From Rossellomorea sp. AcN35-11 (GTDB taxonomy: Bacteria > Bacillota > Bacilli > Bacillales > Bacillaceae_B), in the NCBI GenBank assembly GCA_030388825.1, contig CP128835.1, positions 1 to 64,000 of the forward strand: DNA of 64,000 nt, given 5' to 3'. Numbering within the stretch: position 1 is the stretch's first letter; each line of letters begins with the position of its first letter. Under the pieces are notes generated by a model. The model was not told the DNA's origin. It saw only the letters and a list, made by a program, of their open reading frames with translations, and ran no database searches. Shown here piece after piece: positions 1 through 11,581 of the stretch. The translations under genes and the position numbers were made by a program.

Positions 1-351
1 TTGATCACCTGATGGATTCTGGAGATGCAGGGGCTCAAGGATGGCCTCTTCCACTGAGAAAAAGGGGTTGATGGACGAGGTGTAATTCTGGAATACGACG
101 CTGATTTTCCCTTTTCGTACCCGTTTACTCCCAACATCCTTCGAAGCGAGGGTGACGGTTCCACGGTCCGGCTTTTCGATACCGATCAGCAGCCTCCCCA
201 GGGTCGATTTGCCGCTTCCACTTTCCCCGATGATGCCCAGGCATTCTCCCCGCTTCACTTCAAAGCCGACATCAGACAGTACCTGCTGCCTCACCGTGGA
301 GAAGAGACCTCCGTGCTTATACGATTTGTCTATACCGTTAACGTTTAACAA
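1..351 (-). CDS. cntF: Opine-metallophore ABC importer ATPase, CntF-like (3' part beyond left edge)
   Basis: This is the N-terminal 117 codons of an oligopeptide/nickel-type ABC ATPase; the rest lies outside the window. The Walker A motif GESGSGKST is visible near residue 45 and the Q-loop region VVFQNYTSSINP near residue 90, as in the DppF/OppF/CntF group. I place the start at a TTG at 351, inside the end of the upstream ATPase gene (14-bp overlap), because a GGGGGGA ribosome site lies just upstream and the reading frame is open from there. It would be the second ATPase that powers uptake of the metal-opine complex at the inner face of the membrane. Substrate assignment rests on the operon; the family alone would allow dipeptide or nickel uptake. 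Confidence 0.85.
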   Translation of the reverse strand, partial: MLNVNGIDKSYKHGGLFSTVRQQVLSDVGFEVKRGECLGIIGESGSGKSTLGRLLIGIEKPDRGTVTLASKDVGSKRVRKGKISVVFQNYTSSINPFFSVEEAILEPLHLQNPSGDQ

Positions 352-1153
352 AGGACTGTCCCCCCGTCTGTCTGTTCAATGGATCGCTCAATGATCGCCG
401 GGTCGATACCAGGTGCTTGGTGTATTCTTCAACAGGCGTTTCCAGCACCGAGTGAGTCCTTCCTCTTTCAATGATCCGGCCGTCCTTCATGACCAAAAGA
501 TCATCTGCGATATGCCGGACTACGCCAAGGTCATGGGAGATGAAGATCATGGAGCACCCCACTCTTTCCTTTAATTCTGTCAGCTGCTTCATCACTTCGT
601 ATTGCGTGATGGTATCAAGTGCTGTCGTCGGCTCGTCGGCGATGATCAGGTCAGGTTCGAGGACGAGTGCCAGGGCAATCATGATCCTCTGGAGCATCCC
701 GCCGGATAGCTGATGAGGATAGTGGTTCATTGCTTCACAGGGGACCATGACACTTTCCAGGGCAGATTTCAGCTTTCGTTCCGCCTCCTTCTTGGACCAA
801 TTGAAATGTTCAGCAGCTGTTTGAAGCAGGTGAACCCCAATGACGCGTGATGGATCAAAGGCCGTCATTCCGTTCTGCATGATCATGTACATCTGTCTGC
901 CCCGTTTTTTCCTCATGGCTTTTTTTGAAAGGCCAAGAAGATTTTCCCCTTTGAAAAAGACGTTGCCGGTTTCTTTGAGCCCCGGCTGGTTTAACCCCAT
1001 CAGGGACCGACATGTAAGGGACTTGCCGCTTCCGCTTTCCCCGACGATGGCGAGTGTGGTCCCTTTCTTCACAAGGAAGGAACTATTCTTTACAAGGGTA
1101 TTCCCTGTCTTTTCATCGACAATGGATAGATTCTTCACCTCGAGGATATTCAT
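338..1153 (-). CDS. cntD: Opine-metallophore ABC importer ATPase, CntD-like
   Basis: ATPase of 271 residues of the OppD/DppD/NikD family. Walker A is GESGSGKS near residue 40, the signature motif LSGGMLQR near 150, Walker B DLIIADEPTTALD near 170 and the switch histidine in FISHDLGVV near 205. It lacks the long C-terminal Fe-S-like extension of some OppD proteins. Its start overlaps the stop of the upstream permease gene by 4 bp and its 3' end overlaps the next ATPase, so it is translationally coupled in the cnt-like operon. It would form the ATPase pair with the CntF-like subunit. Confidence 0.9.
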   Translation of the reverse strand: MNILEVKNLSIVDEKTGNTLVKNSSFLVKKGTTLAIVGESGSGKSLTCRSLMGLNQPGLKETGNVFFKGENLLGLSKKAMRKKRGRQMYMIMQNGMTAFDPSRVIGVHLLQTAAEHFNWSKKEAERKLKSALESVMVPCEAMNHYPHQLSGGMLQRIMIALALVLEPDLIIADEPTTALDTITQYEVMKQLTELKERVGCSMIFISHDLGVVRHIADDLLVMKDGRIIERGRTHSVLETPVEEYTKHLVSTRRSLSDPLNRQTGGQSFVKR

Positions 1154-2046
1154 TTCGTTTCAGCCACCTCTTTTCTTGAGCCTGCCTTCATCATGGAAAA
1201 GCCACCTTGACGAACCCTTCTTCCCCTGCTTTTGGGATCCAATGCGATCTGAAGGGAATCTGAAAGAAAATTAAAGGCCATGACAATCGTGATGATGGCG
1301 AAACCGGGAGCGAGCAATAATTCGGGTCGTGTGAACATCACCGACCGGGCTTCATTCAACATCATCCCCCATTCCGCCGTTGGTGCCTGGACCCCCAATC
1401 CAAGAAAGGAAAATCCTGAAATCTGGAGGATCATGGACGAAATCGAACTGCTTGAGATGACGGCGATATCGGCAAACGTCACCGGCACGATATGCTTGAG
1501 CATGATTCTGACGTCGCTGACACCGATGGCCCTTGCATATCTCACATAATCGGATTCGGCGAATTGACTGACCGACGTCCGGATGATCCGGGCAAACCAG
1601 GCCCATTTTGTGATAATGAAGGCAATGAGGATATTTTGAAGTCCCACCCCGAGTACACCGATGATGGCAAGGGCCATGATGTATCCTGGAAACGACAGCA
1701 TGATATCACAGACCCTCATGAGAACGGCATCCACTTTCCCCTGAAAATATCCCGACACGAAGCCGACGATGGCTCCGATCACCACAGATATGACCAAGGC
1801 CACCAGCACCCATAAGACGCTCGGCCTGATGCCGTAAAGAATCCTCGACAGGATGCAGCGGCCCAAATGATCATTCCCCAACAGATAATCCCATGATGGC
1901 GGGGCATAGCGCAGGCCCATGTCCACCTCGGCGGGATCGTGGGGGGCGATGAACGGAGCAAACAGGCCGCTCACAAGAGTCAACAGAATGACAATCAACG
2001 ATACCAACCCGAGTGCATCATGACGTATATTCAATACATGTCTCAT
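1150..2046 (-). CDS. cntC: Opine-metallophore ABC importer permease, CntC-like
   Basis: Integral membrane permease of 298 residues, DppC/NikC family. An N-terminal membrane segment (LGLVSLIVILLTLVSGLFAP) is followed by the OppC-type segment with HDPAEVDMGLRYAPPSWDYLLGNDHLGR, then five more membrane segments. The EAA-type cytoplasmic loop (YARAIGVSDVRIMLKHIVP, about residues 165-185) contacts the ATPase. The ATG directly follows the stop of the upstream permease gene. In Staphylococcus the equivalent subunit imports staphylopine-bound nickel, cobalt and zinc; the same role here is inferred from the adjacent biosynthesis genes. Confidence 0.88.
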   Translation of the reverse strand: MRHVLNIRHDALGLVSLIVILLTLVSGLFAPFIAPHDPAEVDMGLRYAPPSWDYLLGNDHLGRCILSRILYGIRPSVLWVLVALVISVVIGAIVGFVSGYFQGKVDAVLMRVCDIMLSFPGYIMALAIIGVLGVGLQNILIAFIITKWAWFARIIRTSVSQFAESDYVRYARAIGVSDVRIMLKHIVPVTFADIAVISSSSISSMILQISGFSFLGLGVQAPTAEWGMMLNEARSVMFTRPELLLAPGFAIITIVMAFNFLSDSLQIALDPKSRGRRVRQGGFSMMKAGSRKEVAETK

Positions 2047-2988
2047 CTAGTGATCATTCCTTACTTTAGGATTCACAGCTGCGTTCAGAATGTCCGAAAT
2101 CGCATTGAAGATCACGAAAGCCGCCGCCACGATCAGGACATATGCCTGAACGACGGGAAAGTCCCGGCTGATAATGGATCTGACACTCAAGCTTCCGACA
2201 CCCGGCCAGGCAAACACACTTTCCACGACCACCGTACTCCCCAATATGATGGGCACAGCCATACAGAAGACGGAGATTGCAACCTGAAGGGAGTTGCGGA
2301 TGATCCTCCCGGTGACCTGCCATTCCTTCAGTCCGCATGCCCGTGCATAAAGAACATAATCAGCACTCAACTGTCTCTGCAGCATGGAGCTTCGGATGAT
2401 CCGGAAGTAGATCCCTGCATAGCTGATGGTGATGACGAGGACGGGAAGGATATAACCCGAGTAGGAGTCCATGCCGTTCGTCGGAAGCCAATCGAGCTTA
2501 ACGGAAAAATACCAGATCAACAGAGTGGCCACTAAATAAGAAGGCATGGCTGTCAGGAAAAATGAGGTGCCCCTGATGAACCGGTCCGCCGCTTTGTCCT
2601 GCTGCAACGCACAAATCACCCCAAGGAACACCGAAAGGACGATGACGGCTCCAGAGGAAATGAGCGTCAGCTTCACCGTATTGATCAATGCGGGACCAAG
2701 GAGGGACCAGACAGCCTGGCCTGTCACAAAGGACGTCCCGAAGTCGAGACGGAGACAGTCCAGCAGCCAATCCCCGTACTGCAGGAGGAATGGCCGGTTC
2801 AATCCGAGCTCCTCCCTTGTGCCTTCTTTCAGTTCATCCGTAATGACCGGTACTCCCTGTGCCTTCAAAACGACCTCTGCGTGATCCATGGGGGACAGAC
2901 TCATCAGCACGAAGGTCAGAAAGGAAATCACCAGCAGCACCGGCACCGCCATTAACATTCTTTTAAAGATGTATCTTATCAAGACCAT
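2047..2988 (-). CDS. cntB: Opine-metallophore ABC importer permease, CntB-like
   Basis: Permease of 313 residues, DppB/NikB family. The first membrane segment (MLMAVPVLLVISFLTFVLMS) precedes the typical large extracytoplasmic loop with LGLNRPFLLQYGDWLLDCLRLDFGTSF, followed by about five segments and the EAA loop (YARACGLKEWQVTGRIIRN). The ATG at 2988 abuts its GAGGAGG site; a TTG at 2982 has better spacing (6 nt), so the protein may begin two codons later. It partners the CntC-like permease. The assignment as metallophore importer comes from the operon. Confidence 0.88.
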   Translation of the reverse strand: MVLIRYIFKRMLMAVPVLLVISFLTFVLMSLSPMDHAEVVLKAQGVPVITDELKEGTREELGLNRPFLLQYGDWLLDCLRLDFGTSFVTGQAVWSLLGPALINTVKLTLISSGAVIVLSVFLGVICALQQDKAADRFIRGTSFFLTAMPSYLVATLLIWYFSVKLDWLPTNGMDSYSGYILPVLVITISYAGIYFRIIRSSMLQRQLSADYVLYARACGLKEWQVTGRIIRNSLQVAISVFCMAVPIILGSTVVVESVFAWPGVGSLSVRSIISRDFPVVQAYVLIVAAAFVIFNAISDILNAAVNPKVRNDH

Positions 2989-3009
2989 CCTCCTCTCAAT
3001 CGTTGGGGT

Positions 3010-4605
3010 TTATTCGTGTAATTCCATCTGTTCGAACGGAAGCTCAAACTGTGTTTGTTTGAACGTCAGTCCCTTTAATCCTTCAGGAGCCACAACCGTC
3101 ATCCTGCCGTTGGATATCGGGATGAATACAGCTTCCTCATGAACGATCGATAATATATCCTTATAGAGGGATTTCCGCTTCCCTTCATCCGTCTCCACCA
3201 TGACGTCTTCAATCTTTTGATATAGTTCGTCTGCTTGCCTGATGCCCTTGGTTGTATGAAGGTAGGATGCATCGGAAGTAAATGCCGCAATGGTACTGAC
3301 AGGGTCGTAGGCGAGTCCCCATGTTTGATTGAATAATAGTTCATAGTCCCCTGTTGAACGTCTTCCTGCGATGGAGGTGGATTCTTCCCCAAGGATTTCA
3401 AGCTGGACTCCGATTTTCTTGAGTGAGCTTTGGATGAATTCTGCTTCTGTTTTTTGAGAAGGGGAATTGCTGTCGTAATAGAGCTTCATGGCTAAAGGCT
3501 GACCATCCTTCTCACGGATTCCGCCGTCACCAGTCTTCCAGCCTGCTTCTTCCAGGAGCTCAATCGCTTTATCCTCATCGAAGCCCCTCTTTTTCAACTC
3601 AATATCGGCATACAGGACATTGGCTGAAAATAAGGTGTGGGCTTCTGTTTCCGTCCCGTCCAGAATCTTCTCTGAAATCGTCTTTCGGTCGATGGCATAC
3701 CAGATCGCTTCCCTGACCGCCGTCTCCTTGACAGGACTATCCGTTTTGCTGCTGTTAGCGACAATCATCTTCGTATTCATCGGTTGACTTCTTTCCACTT
3801 GATAGTCCCCTGTCCCGACCAGCTGCTGCATCGCTTCCACATTGAGGCTGTCGGCCCCGCGGTCATCCGTGAAAGCGAAGTTAATCTCCCCTTTTTGCAA
3901 CGCGAGGAATGTCGTCTCCCCGGCAGGGAGCACTTTCGCCGTAATTTCTTTAATAGAAGGAACTCCTCCCCAATAGTCTTCGTTTGCTTTAAACCGGGCG
4001 AACTCATCTACTTGATGTTCCTCGAGGATATAAGGACCGGTGCCGTGATAACCACTCACCCCATCCTTTGTTTCCCCGTTCTTGAAGTCATTCGGTGACA
4101 GAAACACATAAGGCCTCGTCATGGATAACTCCGTTAGCGTTGGATAATAGGCCTCAGACAGAGCCAGTTCAACGGTATGTTCATCCTTGACCCGAACTTC
4201 CTCAATTTTAGTGGAAAGCTTGATCCACGAGTGTTTCTCCCGATTGTGCTGTACAGCTTCTATATTCTCCTTGACTGCTTCAGCATTGAATGGTGTTCCG
4301 TCATGGAAGGTTACATCCTTCCTGAGGTGGAAGGTATACATCTTGCCGTCTTCTGAAATCTCCCAGGACTCAGCAAGCAGCGGTTTGATGCCATCCTCCG
4401 TATTCTCTACCAACGATTCATACACCTTGCCTTGTGCTGCCATGGATCCCGTGTATAAATGCGGGTTCATGTCATTAATATCTTTGGCAGTGGCATAGAT
4501 CAATCCATCTTTAGCAGCCCCAGGTTCTCCTTCCGTTTTCCCTGAGCAGGCAGCAAGGATCATGGTCACAGCGACCAATAAGCTTAACGTCCATTTCTTC
4601 TTCAT
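3010..4605 (-). CDS. cntA: Opine-metallophore substrate-binding lipoprotein, CntA-like
   Basis: Extracytoplasmic solute-binding protein of the SBP_bac_5 family, about 531 residues. A lipoprotein signal (MKKKWTLSLLVAVTMILAAC, lipobox LAAC with lipidated Cys20) anchors it to the outer face of the membrane. Family blocks include VYESLVENTEDGIKPLLAESWE and FHDGTPFNAEAVKENIEA. I chose the ATG at 4605 because it starts the signal peptide and has a GGAGAG site; the frame is open 14 codons further up without such a site. It lies 16 bp after cntM, between the biosynthesis and permease genes, the order known from the Staphylococcus cnt operon. Confidence 0.9.
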   Translation of the reverse strand: MKKKWTLSLLVAVTMILAACSGKTEGEPGAAKDGLIYATAKDINDMNPHLYTGSMAAQGKVYESLVENTEDGIKPLLAESWEISEDGKMYTFHLRKDVTFHDGTPFNAEAVKENIEAVQHNREKHSWIKLSTKIEEVRVKDEHTVELALSEAYYPTLTELSMTRPYVFLSPNDFKNGETKDGVSGYHGTGPYILEEHQVDEFARFKANEDYWGGVPSIKEITAKVLPAGETTFLALQKGEINFAFTDDRGADSLNVEAMQQLVGTGDYQVERSQPMNTKMIVANSSKTDSPVKETAVREAIWYAIDRKTISEKILDGTETEAHTLFSANVLYADIELKKRGFDEDKAIELLEEAGWKTGDGGIREKDGQPLAMKLYYDSNSPSQKTEAEFIQSSLKKIGVQLEILGEESTSIAGRRSTGDYELLFNQTWGLAYDPVSTIAAFTSDASYLHTTKGIRQADELYQKIEDVMVETDEGKRKSLYKDILSIVHEEAVFIPISNGRMTVVAPEGLKGLTFKQTQFELPFEQMELHE

Positions 4606-4621
4606 CACGTACTTCTCTCCT

Positions 4622-5944
4622 TTAACGTCCTTGTAAAATAGAATCATTACGATTTGTCTCCTGTAACATCTGTCCGGTTATCCCCTTGATGTCCTTATGA
4701 AAACTCCGGATCCGAAAAGCTTCAGAAAGCTTCTGACCTTGATAGGCTGCAGCCACTTCTTCCAGCTTCTTCTCATAGGTTCTGATCTGCCTGTCGATGG
4801 TGGGGCATTGCACGTCCAAGAACCTGGCAATCCCCTGGATGATCTTGATGCGGTAGTAGTCTTCCTTAGGCATCCTCGGAATGTCGAGCTCCCCCTCCAG
4901 ATTCCTGAACATGCTCCGGATCGGCACGGCGGAGAAGTCGAAATACCTTCCTGCCTCATCCGGGGTGGAAAAAGGATCGATCAGGAGGGAAGTATAGCGT
5001 ATGTAAAGCAGATACTCCTGGTGGATCGTCTCCAGTTGTTCAAACCCCTCGATGTCCGTGCGGGACAGACTTTCCTCTCTCACAGGATAGGTATCATCCG
5101 TCATGAACCGGAGGAGGTTGACTCTCTCCATGCCCAACTTCTCAAGGATCCGCATCATTTCCTGCCACTGGGCGAGCATATCCCGTATCAAATGCTGGGT
5201 GATTGGACCTTCCGGGTACAGCTTATACACATATTTCCTGGAAGGCCTGTCAGCGAATATCTCCTTCAGTGTCACCTCATTCATAAAGAGGGGCGGATGG
5301 ACGTATAGGGAAATGTTACGCGTTTCGGCCTCCAGTGGTGACGGTGTCCTGACGACCTCGATCCCAAGCTTCCTTCCCGATTCGATAAGGCTTTGAACGA
5401 TCTCGGAATATCCATGGGTAGAACCGATATACAGCCTCTTTTTTACGGCGGTGGTGACGACATGATGGGAAGGCTCCTTCTCCATCCACCTTGTATCCCC
5501 TAAATATGTGGAGAAACTGATGATTTCGGCCTCTGGTTGAATATCTGACAGATCATGCTTCACGAGTCGATTGGACCCGAAAGTCGGTGAAACCAGCACA
5601 ATGGACTGTACGCCTCTGAATACGTCCCTCGGGATCGTGTGGAGCACGTCCAGATAAGCGTCGGTGGTAACGGCAAGCACCACTGTGTCCCAATTTCCTC
5701 CTATGGTTTCCAACCCTCTGAAGACATGATCGACTCTGCATGTACCTTGCACTCTTTCATTCTCCCGATTCTGAACAGACACGCAAATATGATGATCATT
5801 TCTCTCCAACGATTGAAAAAAAGATTCGGACCTGACCGAGTTTCTTCCGGCAATCCCCACTTCACAGCCCATTTGCTCTTTAGCCAACATACAAAGCTGC
5901 ACCGAGGCAGGTCCCGTACCGATTACTAAGACTCGTTTACCCAT
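4622..5944 (-). CDS. cntM: Staphylopine-type opine dehydrogenase, CntM-like
   Basis: NADPH-dependent opine dehydrogenase of 440 residues. In the Cnt pathway it reductively condenses a keto acid with the aminobutyryl-D-histidine made by CntK and CntL. The N-terminal Rossmann motif VLVIGTGPASVQL (residues 5-17) and cofactor segment GIAGRNS are clear. The segment STYLGDTRW puts an Asp at residue 150, counting from the ATG at 5944. Asp at this position is, as I recall, linked to pyruvate use (staphylopine), while Ala is linked to 2-oxoglutarate use (pseudopaline). The start overlaps cntL by 8 bp; a longer frame upstream has no better ribosome site. Confidence 0.88.
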   Translation of the reverse strand: MGKRVLVIGTGPASVQLCMLAKEQMGCEVGIAGRNSVRSESFFQSLERNDHHICVSVQNRENERVQGTCRVDHVFRGLETIGGNWDTVVLAVTTDAYLDVLHTIPRDVFRGVQSIVLVSPTFGSNRLVKHDLSDIQPEAEIISFSTYLGDTRWMEKEPSHHVVTTAVKKRLYIGSTHGYSEIVQSLIESGRKLGIEVVRTPSPLEAETRNISLYVHPPLFMNEVTLKEIFADRPSRKYVYKLYPEGPITQHLIRDMLAQWQEMMRILEKLGMERVNLLRFMTDDTYPVREESLSRTDIEGFEQLETIHQEYLLYIRYTSLLIDPFSTPDEAGRYFDFSAVPIRSMFRNLEGELDIPRMPKEDYYRIKIIQGIARFLDVQCPTIDRQIRTYEKKLEEVAAAYQGQKLSEAFRIRSFHKDIKGITGQMLQETNRNDSILQGR

Positions 5945-6761
5945 TATCAGCCGCCGCCTTCCCTGTCCTGAACTTCTCATAAACGATGACATCGAATATT
6001 TGATGAGGGCGCATACTGTTTTCTGCGATTCTCCATTTCTTCTGATCTACTTTCTGTGAAGGGAAATTGAAGAGGGATTTAAGCCCGTCCCCGTACCTCA
6101 TGGACACGACGACGTCTTCTCCCGTCCGTTCATAGAGCTGATCGAGGATGTCATATTTCCCTTCTACCGTCGAACTGAAGATGATATGCGTCACGTCCTT
6201 CAGGTCCTTGTGCTCTTCCACCTGCGAAAGCTCCAATGTGATTGGAAGATCCCTGCCCAACCGGTCCACCACTTGACGACCAAGAGTGATGGCTTCCGGG
6301 TCGATGTCGATTCCGATGACCTTCGCTCCTGTACGCCCTGCAATCAGGAGGGGCGTCATGGGGAATGAGCCGGATCCAACCAGAAGGACAGTCGACTTCT
6401 GCGTCACCTGAAACTGTCCGAATTCCTTTTCAATGCAGGATTCAATGTTTTGAAAATAATCTGCTGTCTCTTCTTCCCCACTCAAAAGCTTCATGGCGCG
6501 ATGCTTCTCCATCTTTGCAACGGAAAGGGCCGACAGCTTCCTTACCCCATCCACAAGGTGTAAGACATCCTCTGGCGTGGAATCCATCAGCAGTTTCCAC
6601 TTCTTTATGTATTCTTCATTGAGTATGAATGCGGAATACTCATCGATTAACTCCTCTAAAGGGAAAGCATCCTCTTCCATTAAGCCACTCCCTTCCATGG
6701 CCTCGGCAAATCGCTTCAAATACATGCGCAGATCATCTTCCAACGTCCTGTTCTCAATCAT
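5937..6761 (-). CDS. cntL: Nicotianamine-synthase-like aminobutyryltransferase, CntL-like
   Basis: Protein of 274 residues of the bacterial nicotianamine-synthase-like family. In the Cnt pathway it moves an alpha-aminobutyrate unit from S-adenosylmethionine to D-histidine. A helical N-terminal half (about 1-125) precedes an SAM-binding Rossmann-like half with VLLVGSGSFPMTPLLIA (about 125-141) and VIGIDIDPEAITLGRQ; SMRYGDGLKSLFNFP is near the C-terminus. The length fits single-domain CntL proteins. It starts with a 4-bp ATGA overlap with cntK and ends inside the start of cntM, so the three enzymes are tightly coupled. Confidence 0.88.
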   Translation of the reverse strand: MIENRTLEDDLRMYLKRFAEAMEGSGLMEEDAFPLEELIDEYSAFILNEEYIKKWKLLMDSTPEDVLHLVDGVRKLSALSVAKMEKHRAMKLLSGEEETADYFQNIESCIEKEFGQFQVTQKSTVLLVGSGSFPMTPLLIAGRTGAKVIGIDIDPEAITLGRQVVDRLGRDLPITLELSQVEEHKDLKDVTHIIFSSTVEGKYDILDQLYERTGEDVVVSMRYGDGLKSLFNFPSQKVDQKKWRIAENSMRPHQIFDVIVYEKFRTGKAAADNG

Positions 6762-7612
6762 CCTGCTACCTCCTCCTCGTTCATCATTATGAAAGCTTTG
6801 CCTTCTGCCACGATGCCGACAGTCCCTTCAATCCGGACGGACGTAATGGACCCTTCATCCCACTCGGCGCTGACATGCATCTCACCTCCAGGCTGTTTGA
6901 CTCGTGCTGACATAGAGCGATCCTGCTTCCATGCCAGATAGGCACCCAGTGACCCGGTTCCCGACCCGCATCCCCTTTCCCACACCATGCTCCCCAGCTC
7001 AGGCACATAAATGAGGGGGGAAAGTTCACTTGTCCCGGCATCATACAGGAGGACCCCGACCAAATTCCCCTCATAGGATGACCGGATCATCCTTGCCAGT
7101 GCTTCGGCGGACCGTCTCAGTGTAGGATCCACCGGTCCCGCTTCCAGTACTGCGTGAACTGCCTCCTGGTAATGAATCATGGTGACCGCCAGGACTTCTC
7201 CATCCACCACCCACATCTGTTTCTGGATCAGTGTGGGAACAGGAATGGTCATTGTGCACCGATATACCCCCATTTCATTTTCCACCTCACAAGAGACCAG
7301 CTCATCCGTTCCCGAGACTTGCATCAGGATCGTTGATGAATCACCATGTGGCATAGACCTTTGAGAAGCAATGAAAGCCGCCAACGACATGCAGGCATTC
7401 CCGCAGAACTCTCCCCCGGCCATCACCAGGGCCGCATCTGCAGCTCCGTCCTCTGCCTCTTCCATGAAGCCGACCTGTTCTGCATGGAGACTGTCATATG
7501 CCATAAGCCTTGAGGCAATCTGGTGGTAATCGTCCACCCGGTGTCTGGTCTTTACTAGAACCGTCATGTTCTCAGTCGGATTGAATTTGACAAATTCGAT
7601 TTCCTGCATCAT
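6758..7612 (-). CDS. cntK: Cofactor-independent histidine racemase, CntK-like
   Basis: First gene of the operon, about 284 residues, of the diaminopimelate-epimerase fold. It should convert L-histidine to D-histidine for the metallophore. The two catalytic cysteines of this fold are visible: Cys70 in GGEFCGNA and Cys215 in ERGCGSGTGS, one in each half. I chose the ATG at 7612 because AGGAAAGGG lies 5-12 nt upstream; the frame is open 15 codons further without a good site. A DapF or proline-racemase function is possible by fold, but the neighbours point to CntK. A promoter and Zur-type boxes lie upstream. Confidence 0.88.
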   Translation of the reverse strand: MMQEIEFVKFNPTENMTVLVKTRHRVDDYHQIASRLMAYDSLHAEQVGFMEEAEDGAADAALVMAGGEFCGNACMSLAAFIASQRSMPHGDSSTILMQVSGTDELVSCEVENEMGVYRCTMTIPVPTLIQKQMWVVDGEVLAVTMIHYQEAVHAVLEAGPVDPTLRRSAEALARMIRSSYEGNLVGVLLYDAGTSELSPLIYVPELGSMVWERGCGSGTGSLGAYLAWKQDRSMSARVKQPGGEMHVSAEWDEGSITSVRIEGTVGIVAEGKAFIMMNEEEVAG

Positions 7613-7696
7613 GTTGATCCCTTTCCTCCTTTTTTCCACCGCTTCGTCAGCAGCCACTGTGTGGTGCGTGTAAAGCTTATTTCCTGAATGTAAAAT

Positions 7697-7711
7697 TCGT
7701 AATGATTACGA
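7697..7711. promoter_or_regulatory. Exact Zur-type operator upstream of the cnt operon
   Basis: The 15 bases TCGTAATGATTACGA match the Bacillus 7-1-7 Zur consensus (TCGTAATnATTACGA) at every defined position. The TAAA/TTTA flanks extend the symmetry. It lies 85 bp upstream of the cntK start, so zinc-dependent repression of the operon is likely. Confidence 0.85.
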
Positions 7712-7746
7712 TTTACAAAACAAAAAAATACTCTCCTGCATGTAAA

Positions 7747-7761
7747 ACGTAACAGTTTCGA
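7747..7761. promoter_or_regulatory. Degenerate second Zur-type operator
   Basis: ACGTAACAGTTTCGA matches 10 of 14 defined positions of the Zur consensus and has the same TGTAAAA/ATTTAC-like flanks as the exact box 50 bp away. It sits just downstream of the predicted transcription start. Its weakness means it may be an auxiliary site only. Confidence 0.45.
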
Positions 7762-7773
7762 TTTACCTCTTCT

Positions 7774-7802
7774 ATGCTAGGGAGTTTTTCATTTTCTGTC
7801 AA
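7774..7802 (-). promoter_or_regulatory. Predicted sigma-A promoter of the cnt operon
   Basis: On the minus strand TTGACA (7802-7797) and TAGCAT (7779-7774) are separated by 17 bp. The start point would be near 7767, next to the degenerate Zur box and upstream of the exact one. A second, weaker promoter near the exact box cannot be excluded. The rest of 7803-8015 shows no gene. Confidence 0.6.
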
Positions 7803-8056: not shown

Positions 8057-8398
8057 TCAGGATATCTCATCCACACCTTCTGCCAGCTCCCTCATGGAGT
8101 TCAACTTGGAGGTGAGTTCAAAGAACCATTCTTCATCTCCCGTTGACAGCGCCAGGTCGATGAGGAAATGGATTTGTTCTTTGTTCTTGATAATGGTGGA
8201 CGGTATTTTTTTCACCTGCTTGCCAAGTAAGGGGATGGTCTTGCCTTCAATGGCTTTATTGTCACTTGTGACGACTTTTGCTTTGATGGTCCGGCCTTGG
8301 ATATCAAGGTTCTCGATATACCCGATGACGAGTTCACCCGAGTGTGATGTCCCCTTGATCCAATCTCCCGTTTTTAAGATCGATTCCTGGTTTGACAT
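8057..8398 (-). CDS. IDEAL-domain protein
   Basis: Protein of 113 residues. The C-terminal part IDLALSTGDEEWFFELTSKL (about residues 80-100) fits the IDEAL domain, a short helical element found in small Bacillales proteins; the N-terminal half is a beta-rich region (TGDWIKGTSHSGELVIGYIENL) that I do not recognise. I chose the ATG at 8398 over a GTG at 8410 because AGAAGGTG lies 10-12 nt upstream of the ATG. One copy of the 23-bp operator shared with the Rrf2 and Spx genes lies 33 bp upstream, so it probably belongs to the same stress regulon. Its molecular function is unknown. Confidence 0.75.
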   Translation of the reverse strand: MSNQESILKTGDWIKGTSHSGELVIGYIENLDIQGRTIKAKVVTSDNKAIEGKTIPLLGKQVKKIPSTIIKNKEQIHFLIDLALSTGDEEWFFELTSKLNSMRELAEGVDEIS

Positions 8399-8430
8399 GA
8401 TCCTTTTCACCTTCTAACATTATTTTGTAA

Positions 8431-8453
8431 ACTGTAATGTTTTTCATTACATT
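8431..8453. promoter_or_regulatory. SaiR-like operator, copy 1 (IDEAL gene)
   Basis: ACTGTAA-N9-TTACATT matches the local consensus ACTGTAA-N9-TTACAGT at 13 of 14 arm positions. It is 33 bp upstream of the IDEAL-gene start, consistent with repression at the promoter. Confidence 0.7.
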
Positions 8454-8488
8454 TAAATCAAAGGAAAGCACCCTCTTCTGGCCTTCCG

Positions 8489-8902
8489 TTACTTCTCTTG
8501 ATTGATCAGATCGACTATATCTTTGATGGTATAGTCCTTTAAATAATCCCCCAGTTGTTCTTCTGCACCGAGGAAAATGTGAAATAGAACTCTTTTCATA
8601 TTGGCCCCGACGACACATTGTTCGTTGGAGTCCGTGCATTTCGGCTGCAGGGCACCTTCCGAGGTGATTTTATAAATATCCCAAAGATTGATCTCACTCA
8701 GTTCACGGGCAAAGATGAATCCTCCGCCTGTTCCTTCTTTGGAAGTAATGAATCCTTGTTTCTTCAACAAGCTCAAGACTTTCCGGATGCGGACCGGATG
8801 AACCCCGGCACTTTCTGAGATAGCATCGCTTGTGGACATGCGGTCCATCTTCAGTGCAAGGTAGGTTAAACTGTGAATCGCTAACGTAAAATCACTATTC
8901 AT
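8489..8902 (-). CDS. Rrf2-family repressor, SaiR-like
   Basis: Transcription regulator of 137 residues, Rrf2 family. A winged helix occupies the N-terminus (FTLAIHSLTYLALKM, then SAGVHPVRIRKVLSLLKKQGFI and the wing KEGTGGGF). Only two cysteines stand out in the region that in other Rrf2 proteins binds an Fe-S cluster (CTDSNEQC, about 89-96), so cluster binding is uncertain. A perfect copy of the 23-bp operator lies 18 bp upstream of its start, so it is likely autoregulated. The next gene upstream encodes an Spx paralogue with two copies of the same operator. This matches the saiR-spxA2 arrangement known in the Bacillus cereus group. Confidence 0.85.
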   Translation of the reverse strand: MNSDFTLAIHSLTYLALKMDRMSTSDAISESAGVHPVRIRKVLSLLKKQGFITSKEGTGGGFIFARELSEINLWDIYKITSEGALQPKCTDSNEQCVVGANMKRVLFHIFLGAEEQLGDYLKDYTIKDIVDLINQEK

Positions 8903-8919
8903 GGCCTTCCTCCTTTATG

Positions 8920-8942
8920 ACTGTAATGGTATCTTTTACAGT
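8920..8942. promoter_or_regulatory. SaiR-like operator, copy 2 (rrf2 gene)
   Basis: Perfect ACTGTAA-N9-TTACAGT dyad, 18 bp before the rrf2-family start codon. It fits autorepression. Confidence 0.8.
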
Positions 8943-8971
8943 TTAGACTGTCAAGGATCCCGTCCATGCCG

Positions 8972-9367
8972 TTAATTGGCGAGCTTCTGAAGCTCATGGA
9001 ACGACACGTTGCGAATCTTGCGTGGAAGGAAGCTGCGGATTTCTTCATCATTATATCCGACCTGCAACCTCTTTTCATCCATGATGATCGGTCTTTTCAG
9101 CATTTGCGGATTCTCCCTGATGAGAGCGTAAAGATCCTTAAGAGGCAGCGATTCAATATCCACGTCCAATGCCTGGAACGCTTTGGACTGGGTGGAGATG
9201 ATGTCTTCCGTCCCATTTTCCGTCAGGCGGAGAATCGACTTGATTTCGTCAGGTGTCAACGGCTCCGTGTTCATGTTTCGTTCGATATATTCAATGGAAT
9301 GCTCCTCGAGCCATGCTTTTGCTTTTCGGCATGAACCACAGCTTGGTGTCAGAAATAGATTGACCAT
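8972..9367 (-). CDS. Spx-family transcription factor, SpxA2-like
   Basis: Spx paralogue of 131 residues. Spx binds the RNA-polymerase alpha subunit and switches on thiol/oxidative-stress genes. The redox CXXC is present (CGSC, residues 10-13 of [16 protein letters not shown]), as are the conserved [20 protein letters not shown] block and the basic FLPRKIR near the C-terminus. The start at 9367 gives the usual Spx N-terminus MV and an AAGGAG site; an in-frame GTG at 9379 abuts that site. Two upstream operators shared with the Rrf2 gene suggest strong repression. It is more likely the inducible SpxA2 type than the housekeeping Spx, which normally lies near mecA. Confidence 0.88.
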
Positions 9368-9398
9368 TTGTTTCAACACTCCTTCTAGTATTAAATGA

Positions 9399-9843: not shown

Positions 9844-10623
9844 TTATTTCCGTGAGACCGCCCCTTTAGCCGAAACGGCGGCAAAAGTAATGGTGATGGC
9901 GCTGACAATGATGATCGCTATGACACCCTGCATCAAATCCCAGAAGACCCAGCCATCAATAAGAGCGGTACGCATGCTCTCGAACACGTAGGTGGTAGGG
10001 TTGATGGTGGCGGCAATCTTCAGCCACTGGGCTTCGATCAATTCGTAGGGAACGAACGTCGTGCTTAAGAAGATCAGCGGGAAGAAGATGAACGTCCCTG
10101 CCTGGGCAGCCTGGGCATTCCGTGTCCTTAGGGCAATCCCGACGGAATATCCAGCGAATGCGAGTCCCCAGCCGATGGCAATGAGAAGGACAAACAGGAT
10201 ACCGGCAAATCCGGTCTTCACATGTAATCCGAGCAAAAAGGCCATGCCGATGATCAACAGGGTCTGGACAAGGAGCTGCAGCATCCCTGCGATGATTGGG
10301 CCAAGGACGATGGCAAGCCTTGATGCGGGTGTGAGAAGAAGCCTGGAGAAAAAGCCGTTTTCAATATCCTTCACAATGCTTTGACCGGCTCCACCAGCCC
10401 CGCCGATGGCAGCCGACACAATCGAGACAGGCAGGATGAACGCCAGATAATCGGCACCTTCGAATGTAGGCAGCTGGGAAATCCCGCTCAGTCCCCCTTC
10501 ATATACAAGAAGGAAGAAGGCGGAAATGATCAGGTTGGGAATGAATGAAAACGGGTTCCGGATCGTAGTCTTCACATTCCGGACCGTCATGAGCCACGTG
10601 TCTTTCAGTACACTATTCCCCAC
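9844..10623 (-). CDS. ABC-2 type exporter permease, DrrB-like
   Basis: Membrane protein of 259 residues, ABC-2 family with about six transmembrane segments. The family block SIVKDIENGFFSRLLLTPASRLAIVLGP (about residues 82-109) is clear. It overlaps the upstream ATPase gene by 11 bp and starts with GTG. Such pairs export drugs, lipids or peptides; nothing here fixes the substrate. If the ATPase gene is truly broken, this permease would have no partner encoded here. Confidence 0.85.
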   Translation of the reverse strand: MGNSVLKDTWLMTVRNVKTTIRNPFSFIPNLIISAFFLLVYEGGLSGISQLPTFEGADYLAFILPVSIVSAAIGGAGGAGQSIVKDIENGFFSRLLLTPASRLAIVLGPIIAGMLQLLVQTLLIIGMAFLLGLHVKTGFAGILFVLLIAIGWGLAFAGYSVGIALRTRNAQAAQAGTFIFFPLIFLSTTFVPYELIEAQWLKIAATINPTTYVFESMRTALIDGWVFWDLMQGVIAIIIVSAITITFAAVSAKGAVSRK

Positions 10624-11581
10624 GGCTCTTCACCCCTTCTCCAGTCTCCCTGGTCAATTTCAGGAATATATCATCCAGGGTAGGTGAAGAAAGCTGGATG
10701 TCTATGATCCCGATTTTCTCTGCATCAAGCATCCGGACCACCTCTAAAAGCTGCCTGGTTCCTTCTTCAACATATAGTAGGATCTTGTCTTGCTGTTGGA
10801 TGACATCAACATCGTCCATCTCTGTCCGGATCAGCCCGACGCTGTGGTCGATCCGTTCACGGTCCTTCAAGGTCAAGGTGATGAGATCATGACCGATTTG
10901 GGATTTCAGCTCCCTTGGAGATCCCATGGCCACGATTTCCCCTTTATTGATAATGCCGATGCGGTCAGCAAGAGAATCCGCCTCCTCCAAATATTGCGTC
11001 GTAAGAAAAATCGTCGTCCCGTTTTCTTGATTCAGCCTCCTCAGTTCCTTCCAAATCGATGCGCGGCTGGAAGGATCAAGCCCCGTCGTCGGTTCATCCA
11101 GGAAGAGAATATTCGGTTCGTTGACAAGGGTAAGGGCGAGATCCAGCCTTCTTCTCATCCCCCCGGAATACCCGCCGATCCTGCGTTCCGCAGCTTCAGT
11201 CAAATCCACGATAGTAAGAAGTTCCTCTGCCCGCTTCCTACCTTCCTCTTTACTGAACCCGAATATGTACGCCTGAAGCTCCACCATTTCACGGCCAGTC
11301 AAATCAGGATCGACTCCGGTTTCCTGAAGGGCGACGCCGATATGCCGGCGGACATTCTCCGGGTCCTTTATGACATCATGCCCCGCCACTTCCACTTTAC
11401 CGGAAGTAGCATTGATCAAGGTCGTCAGAATCTGCACCGTCGTCGACTTTCCTGCCCCATTTGGACCTTAGAAAGCGAAGAACTCTCCCTCTTCGACTTC
11501 GAAGGAAACCCCATTGACCGCCTGCACGTTTCCCTTTTTGAACGTTTTCGTTACATTTTCCACGATAATCTTCCCATTCAC
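10613..11581 (-). pseudogene. DrrA-like ABC exporter ATPase with in-frame stop in Walker A region
   Basis: The full reading frame starts at GTG 11581 (GGAGGG 6 nt upstream) and encodes a DrrA/CcmA-type ATPase of about 322 codons. A TAA at 11470-11468 interrupts it exactly where family members read FFAF-Leu-GPNGAGKSTT. One base change (TTA or CTA to TAA) explains it. Downstream the frame is intact: signature YSGGMRRRL, Walker B NILFLDEPTTGLD and the C-terminal DrrA domain. Re-initiation at GTG 11437 would give a protein without Walker A. It is either a sequencing error or a recent nonsense mutation. Confidence 0.8.

Follow-up and report, generated by a model that had tools for sequence, protein, structure and literature searches.

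A predicted staphylopine-type zincophore operon, apparently under Zur control, in Rossellomorea sp. AcN35-11

Introduction

Opine-like zincophore clusters of Bacillaceae were mapped in 2020 (cluster 1 of Morey and Kehl-Fie, PMC7438024). The split between systems with a racemase and an exporter of the major facilitator superfamily (MFS) and systems with an EamA exporter and no racemase is already described there, and its exporter/importer side in PMC5666155. According to Morey and Kehl-Fie, presence of the racemase indicates D-histidine, while Asp150 in the dehydrogenase CntM indicates pyruvate and Ala150 alpha-ketoglutarate. The same source gives residues besides 150 as likely contributors to CntM selectivity, and places CntM of Bacillaceae in a cluster with the bacillopaline enzyme. 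In Staphylococcus aureus, expression of the cnt genes rises when Zur or Fur is lost (PMC5666155), and cntK and cntA are both reported to have Fur and Zur boxes (PMC7594338). Here we describe a cnt operon at the left end of a 64,000-nucleotide stretch of Rossellomorea sp. AcN35-11, referred to as the window. It corresponds to positions 1-64000 of contig C1 (CP128835.1; 4,187,338 bp), one of the two contigs that make up this genome of 4,815,552 bases.

Gene content, gene order, homology, active-site motifs, an operator match and the regulon context together make it very probable that the locus represents a complete opine-metallophore system of the staphylopine kind, controlled by Zur. The reactions of the individual enzymes, the identity of product and metal, and the mode of regulation are inferred by us from sequence. 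The original prediction, made from the letters of the window, considered such operons less well characterised in Bacillaceae; this holds for their biochemistry, while their occurrence had been mapped in PMC7438024. No paper tying Rossellomorea to staphylopine was found in the open-licence literature searched.

Gene content and organization of the operon

In the window, the operon takes up the leftmost 7.8 kb on the minus strand, with complete cntK, cntL, cntM, cntA, cntB, cntC and cntD, followed by the first 117 codons of cntF, all within positions 1-7802 as proposed originally. The tight coupling noted at that time is also evident: neighbouring genes in the window overlap or lie 0-21 nt apart, and the gap between cntF and cntE is 37 nt. 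Proteins were assigned by profile searches in NCBIfam and Pfam with curated cut-offs, and CntK, CntL and CntM additionally by searches of solved structures in the PDB.

The predicted histidine racemase gene cntK (6758-7657) matches NF033599 (His_racem_CntK) with 228.3 bits (E 1e-67), below the cut-off of 300, and structure 6l4l (E 1e-42). The predicted nicotianamine-synthase-like aminobutyryl transferase gene cntL (5937-6761) matches NF033601 with 298.2 bits, below the cut-off of 350, the Pfam family NAS with 29.6 bits, above the cut-off of 27.1, and the CntL structure 7c7m (E 6e-70). For cntM (4622-5992), a predicted opine dehydrogenase of the staphylopine type, the scores are 636.6 bits to Pfam Staph_opine_DH and 522.3 to NF033600 (cut-off 675, not reached), with structure 6h31 at E 2e-119. 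The best solved structures are 7c7m and 7c9m for CntL, and the staphylopine dehydrogenases 6h31, 6gmz and 6c4r for CntM. CntK is closest to 6l4l and 6jis, deposited as "diaminopimelate epimerase", which we take to be S. aureus CntK structures, and then to histidine racemase 9cr6. The three enzymes thus match the families of characterised CntK, CntL and CntM and not unrelated ones, in line with the initial assignment.

The importer is encoded by cntA (3010-4647; substrate-binding lipoprotein, NF047575 opine_bind_CntA, 950.7 bits, cut-off 800), the permease genes cntB (2047-2988; NF045469 Opp1B nickel/cobalt permease, 460.9 bits, cut-off 380) and cntC (1150-2046; NF047573 opine_perm_CntC, 479.9 bits, cut-off 440), and the ATPase genes cntD (338-1153; NF047578 opine_ATP_CntD, 416.1 bits, cut-off 380) and cntF (1-351, N-terminal part), all on the minus strand. 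The Pfam matches are consistent with these assignments for six of the seven complete genes; CntK had no match in the Pfam search of the seven complete Cnt proteins of the window. Visual inspection of ribosome-binding sites and of the lipoprotein signal suggests that cntK more likely starts at ATG 7612, behind GGAGG, than at GTG 7657, and that the starts of cntM and cntA are probably ATG 5944 and ATG 4605. CntF shares 47-49% identity with the second ATPase encoded in the cnt loci of two staphylococci. The model NF047576, which carries the name CntF, scores 414.8 bits with the first ATPase (the CntD position, 338-1153) and 130.8 with the second one, measured on the same-species copy; for this lineage, the model may have been given the wrong name or seed. 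As the model is of no help in finding cntF, this gene was named from its place in the operon and its homology to the second ATPase of staphylococci.

According to the original prediction, the remainder of cntF and an MFS exporter gene might lie past the left edge, and both were located at the other end of C1. Joining the end of C1 to its start restores an intact CntF frame of 248 amino acids (aa), with the remainder of the gene at C1:4186943-4187338, outside the window. Because cntF runs on unbroken from one end of the contig to the other, C1 is most plausibly a circle opened within cntF. The join lies inside a single unbroken 20.9-kb alignment, at 98.6% identity, to the same-species genome G024. 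A truly truncated operon was set aside, given the intact cntF and this unbroken alignment. Beyond cntF, also outside the window, the predicted MFS exporter gene cntE is located at about C1:4185713-4186905 and exceeds the cut-off of the CntE model NF047574. The operon of G024 is whole: its cntE is one open frame of 396 aa (NF047574, 641.5 bits, cut-off 235), and the remaining eight Cnt proteins match those of the window at 97.8-99.3% identity. The locus agrees with the definition of an opine-like zincophore cluster by Morey and Kehl-Fie: a CntM homologue has a NAS-like CntL directly upstream, and import and efflux genes lie within six open reading frames of cntM, the importer in the window and the efflux gene, which is intact in G024, as gene six downstream of cntM on the far side of the contig join.

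Two architectures in the genus and the order

CntM was found in seven of 36 genomes of the genus, with CntL in the same seven, and in 36 of 397 genomes sampled evenly across the order. One weak, partial match (G169, E 8e-4) was dropped from the order set, leaving 35 loci. Two architectures were distinguished, type 1 with the order K-L-M-A-B-C-D-F-E and type 2 with L-M-EamA and no K. The order loci divide into 13 of type 1 and 22 of type 2, one of the latter a fragment (G115), and in 16 of these 22 the five-gene importer follows directly. The genus tally is five genomes of type 1, including that of the window, two of type 2 and 29 with neither. The comparisons of gene order, residues and operators below draw on 18 type-1 loci (two of them staphylococcal; some are close kin, so that not all are independent) and 23 type-2 loci. 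Type 2 is represented in the genus by L054 and L055 (genomes G025 and G023) and in the order by L094-L113. Locus L114 (G115) consists of a partial CntM, EamA and an ATPase, and is apparently a decayed or broken type-2 copy; this genome was omitted from the residue, operator and racemase counts.

The order K-L-M-A-B-C-D-F-E is kept in all 18 type-1 loci, the two staphylococci included, which bears out the initial remark that the gene order is that of the Staphylococcus staphylopine system. Position 150 of CntM (S. aureus numbering) is Asp in 18/18 type-1 loci and Ala in 22/22 readable type-2 loci. A genome-wide search for CntK gave a match in all 16 type-1 genomes searched and in none of the 22 of type 2. 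Both types together were not found in any of the sampled genomes.

Zur-like operators and regulon context

A perfect Zur-like operator, TCGTAATNATTACGA (7697-7711, no strand assigned), which was absent from the original prediction, is positioned upstream of cntK, about 85 nt before its likely start and downstream of a promoter match. Perfect boxes occur three times in the genome, before cntK, before a znuA-like gene and before an rpsN paralogue. Boxes with up to two mismatches number 23 per strand versus 17 in a reversed control, which makes imperfect matches hardly informative. The znuA-like gene belongs to the ZnuA family over the Pfam cut-off, and is below the NCBIfam AdcA cut-off. The S14 ribosomal protein paralogue is read as the zinc-free form, because it is over the cut-off of the ordinary S14 model and just under that of the zinc type (75.4 versus 77), and has a single cysteine. 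The Zur regulon of Bacillus subtilis is described as including znuABC and rpsN paralogues (PMC4324032, PMC6103462). Fur-family matches in the genome number three, one of them directly after genes read as znuC and znuB. The perfect box common to cntK, the znuA-like gene and the rpsN paralogue supports zinc-repressed zinc scavenging, and the operon of the window is apparently under the control of zinc-sensing regulation.

A second, weaker Zur-like site with four mismatches (7747-7761, minus strand) is situated 50 bp upstream of the first box, shortly after the -10 element. Shuffled upstream stretches of 18 relatives yield 0.19-0.42 sites with up to four mismatches, and this second site is weak if taken alone. 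Two boxes 35-51 bp apart are present in all five type-1 members of the genus. In L051, L052 and L053 both have no more than two mismatches (1-2 each), and the window and G024 have one perfect box and one with four mismatches. Two Zur boxes in one promoter are reported for B. subtilis yciC (PMC6103462). The sigma-A-like promoter TTGACA-17-TAGCAT (7774-7802, minus strand) agrees with the consensus at 10 of 12 positions; with one match found versus 0.9 expected in shuffles, it is weak by itself. Among relatives, the first gene has an upstream box with no more than one mismatch in 14 of 18 type-1 and 13 of 22 type-2 loci, leaving nine type-2 loci devoid of it. An operator before cntA, as reported for S. 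aureus, is not claimed: in a scan of the relatives (the window's own copy not included), G024 shows only a site with four mismatches, and the others vary from no site to one with a single mismatch.

Predicted product and alternative explanations

CntK has both motif (catalytic) cysteines, as recognized from the beginning, and CntM has Asp150; each feature is shared with 18/18 type-1 relatives. Under the rules of PMC7438024, CntK (D-histidine) and Asp150 (pyruvate) predict that the product of the operon is staphylopine-like and not bacillopaline. The original prediction named the bacillopaline system as a related one; a bacillopaline-like product was set aside since CntM has Asp and not Ala at position 150. 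In the proposed mechanism, low zinc would release Zur from the operators and allow transcription of the operon. CntK would convert L-histidine to D-histidine, CntL would add aminobutyrate from S-adenosylmethionine, and CntM would join pyruvate reductively to give staphylopine or its close kin. The metallophore would then be exported by CntE, its zinc complex captured by the lipoprotein CntA and imported through CntB and CntC, driven by CntD and CntF.

Several observations weigh against a complete system of this kind. The Cnt models are the top NCBIfam matches for CntK, CntL and CntM, yet all three proteins are under the equivalog cut-offs (228/300, 298/350 and 522/675), which calls for caution concerning the exact product, as it may differ in detail; for CntM, the NF033600 cut-off is exceeded in 0/397 genomes of the order. 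The Zur-like sites are motif matches, and four of the 18 type-1 loci (L028, L090, L092 and L093) have no box with one mismatch or fewer. Finally, cntE of this assembly is split over three frames.

The same scores allow that the system is as described and its product is another one, CntM using a different keto acid (alpha-ketoglutarate, giving bacillopaline, or some other), or the product being further changed. This would also agree with the grouping of Bacillaceae CntM with the bacillopaline enzyme and with the likely role of residues beyond 150 (PMC7438024). We regard it as unlikely, given Asp150 in the window and in every type-1 relative, and the absence of an extra transferase gene between cntK and cntE.

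The broken cntE could alternatively mean that the pathway is decaying in this strain, with the metallophore trapped in the cell and the importer serving foreign metallophores or nickel/cobalt. The ATP-binding cassette (ABC) exporter gene next after cntE is frame-broken as well. Both breaks are no more than about 2.7 kb away from the contig end, a region in which assemblies are often least reliable; yet a few single-base length differences are also seen farther off within the 20.9 kb compared, so an end effect is not proved as their cause. The eight other cnt genes are open, and in G024 the frames of cntE and of the first exporter gene are both uninterrupted. Exporter loss is described as harmful in S. 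aureus, and the corresponding defect in Pseudomonas aeruginosa as cured by stopping synthesis (PMC7438024). Decay is therefore quite unlikely in our view; an assembly error is the preferred reading of the cntE break, which may nevertheless be a real strain-level loss. Near 10613-11545 of the window, an ABC ATPase gene shows an in-frame stop where G024 has a frame of 324 aa, and the assembly may be in need of polishing. That the locus is a plain nickel/cobalt or oligopeptide importer beside an unrelated enzyme trio, as matches of the permeases to Nik and Opp models might suggest, is highly improbable and was set aside, since CntA, CntC and CntD score above Cnt-specific cut-offs, the three enzymes match CntK, CntL and CntM, and the nine-gene order is common to staphylococci.

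History and neighbourhood in the genus

In a tree of nine concatenated Cnt proteins (the row of the window without CntE), the five type-1 members of the genus make up one clade with 100% support, and deeper branches are partly weak. The family f44 is not one clade in this tree, so that transfer elsewhere in the order is likely. In the genome of the window and in G024, the operon is flanked by an IDEAL-domain gene, part of an Spx/Rrf2/IDEAL block, and by a two-gene ABC exporter. The block of genes for an IDEAL-domain protein, an Rrf2 regulator and an ArsC/Spx-family protein (window 8057-9379) recurs in most genus stretches examined. It was compared in 20 further stretches, picked by strong Rrf2 matches (G032 also matched and was left out), and unmatched frames below 150 aa were ignored. 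The exporter pair is present in 12 of the 20, directly after the IDEAL gene in G031 and G019, both without cnt, and beyond other genes in ten. In the three other type-1 genomes of the genus, cnt is also close to this block, and its neighbours differ. These patterns fit a single ancestral copy that was lost many times, and they fit one early gain followed by later moves equally well.

Significance and comparison with known systems

The operon is well supported as a sound fresh example of a known system and is not a surprise. Modest additions are the regulon evidence, the site history within the genus and the clean type-1/type-2 split in the order sample. We tentatively propose, with less than even confidence, that a single genus switches between zincophores of D-histidine and pyruvate (staphylopine type) and of L-histidine and alpha-ketoglutarate (pseudopaline type), with different exporters, never together in the sampled genomes, with most genomes having neither, and with tandem Zur operators controlling the staphylopine type. 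If true, Rossellomorea would be a natural test bed for zincophore competition, piracy and incompatibility. A system known mainly from Staphylococcus is now placed in a genus of Bacillaceae with an intact same-species genome to hand, which would allow work on staphylopine-type zinc scavenging outside a Staphylococcus pathogen, and the two-type split offers a simple chemical prediction for each genome.

Compared with described systems, the locus shares with the S. aureus staphylopine (cnt) system the predicted racemase, an MFS exporter gene (frame-broken in this assembly), the Opp-type importer, Asp150 and the Zur-like box, and its gene content and order are the same as in two staphylococcal loci. 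Its proteins are 35-62% identical to the counterparts in S. caeli and S. agnetis, and CntK, CntL and CntM differ from the staphylopine enzymes in being below the NCBI equivalog cut-offs. The bacillopaline system of Paenibacillus mucilaginosus likewise has a racemase, an MFS exporter and an Opp-type importer, and its CntM is in a common cluster with that of Bacillaceae (PMC7438024). It differs in having Ala150 and using alpha-ketoglutarate according to the same source, whereas CntM of the window has Asp. Pseudopaline and yersinopine systems share CntL and CntM homologues and the proposed zinc scavenging with the operon studied here, and are distinguished from it, as described in PMC7438024, by an EamA exporter and by having no racemase.

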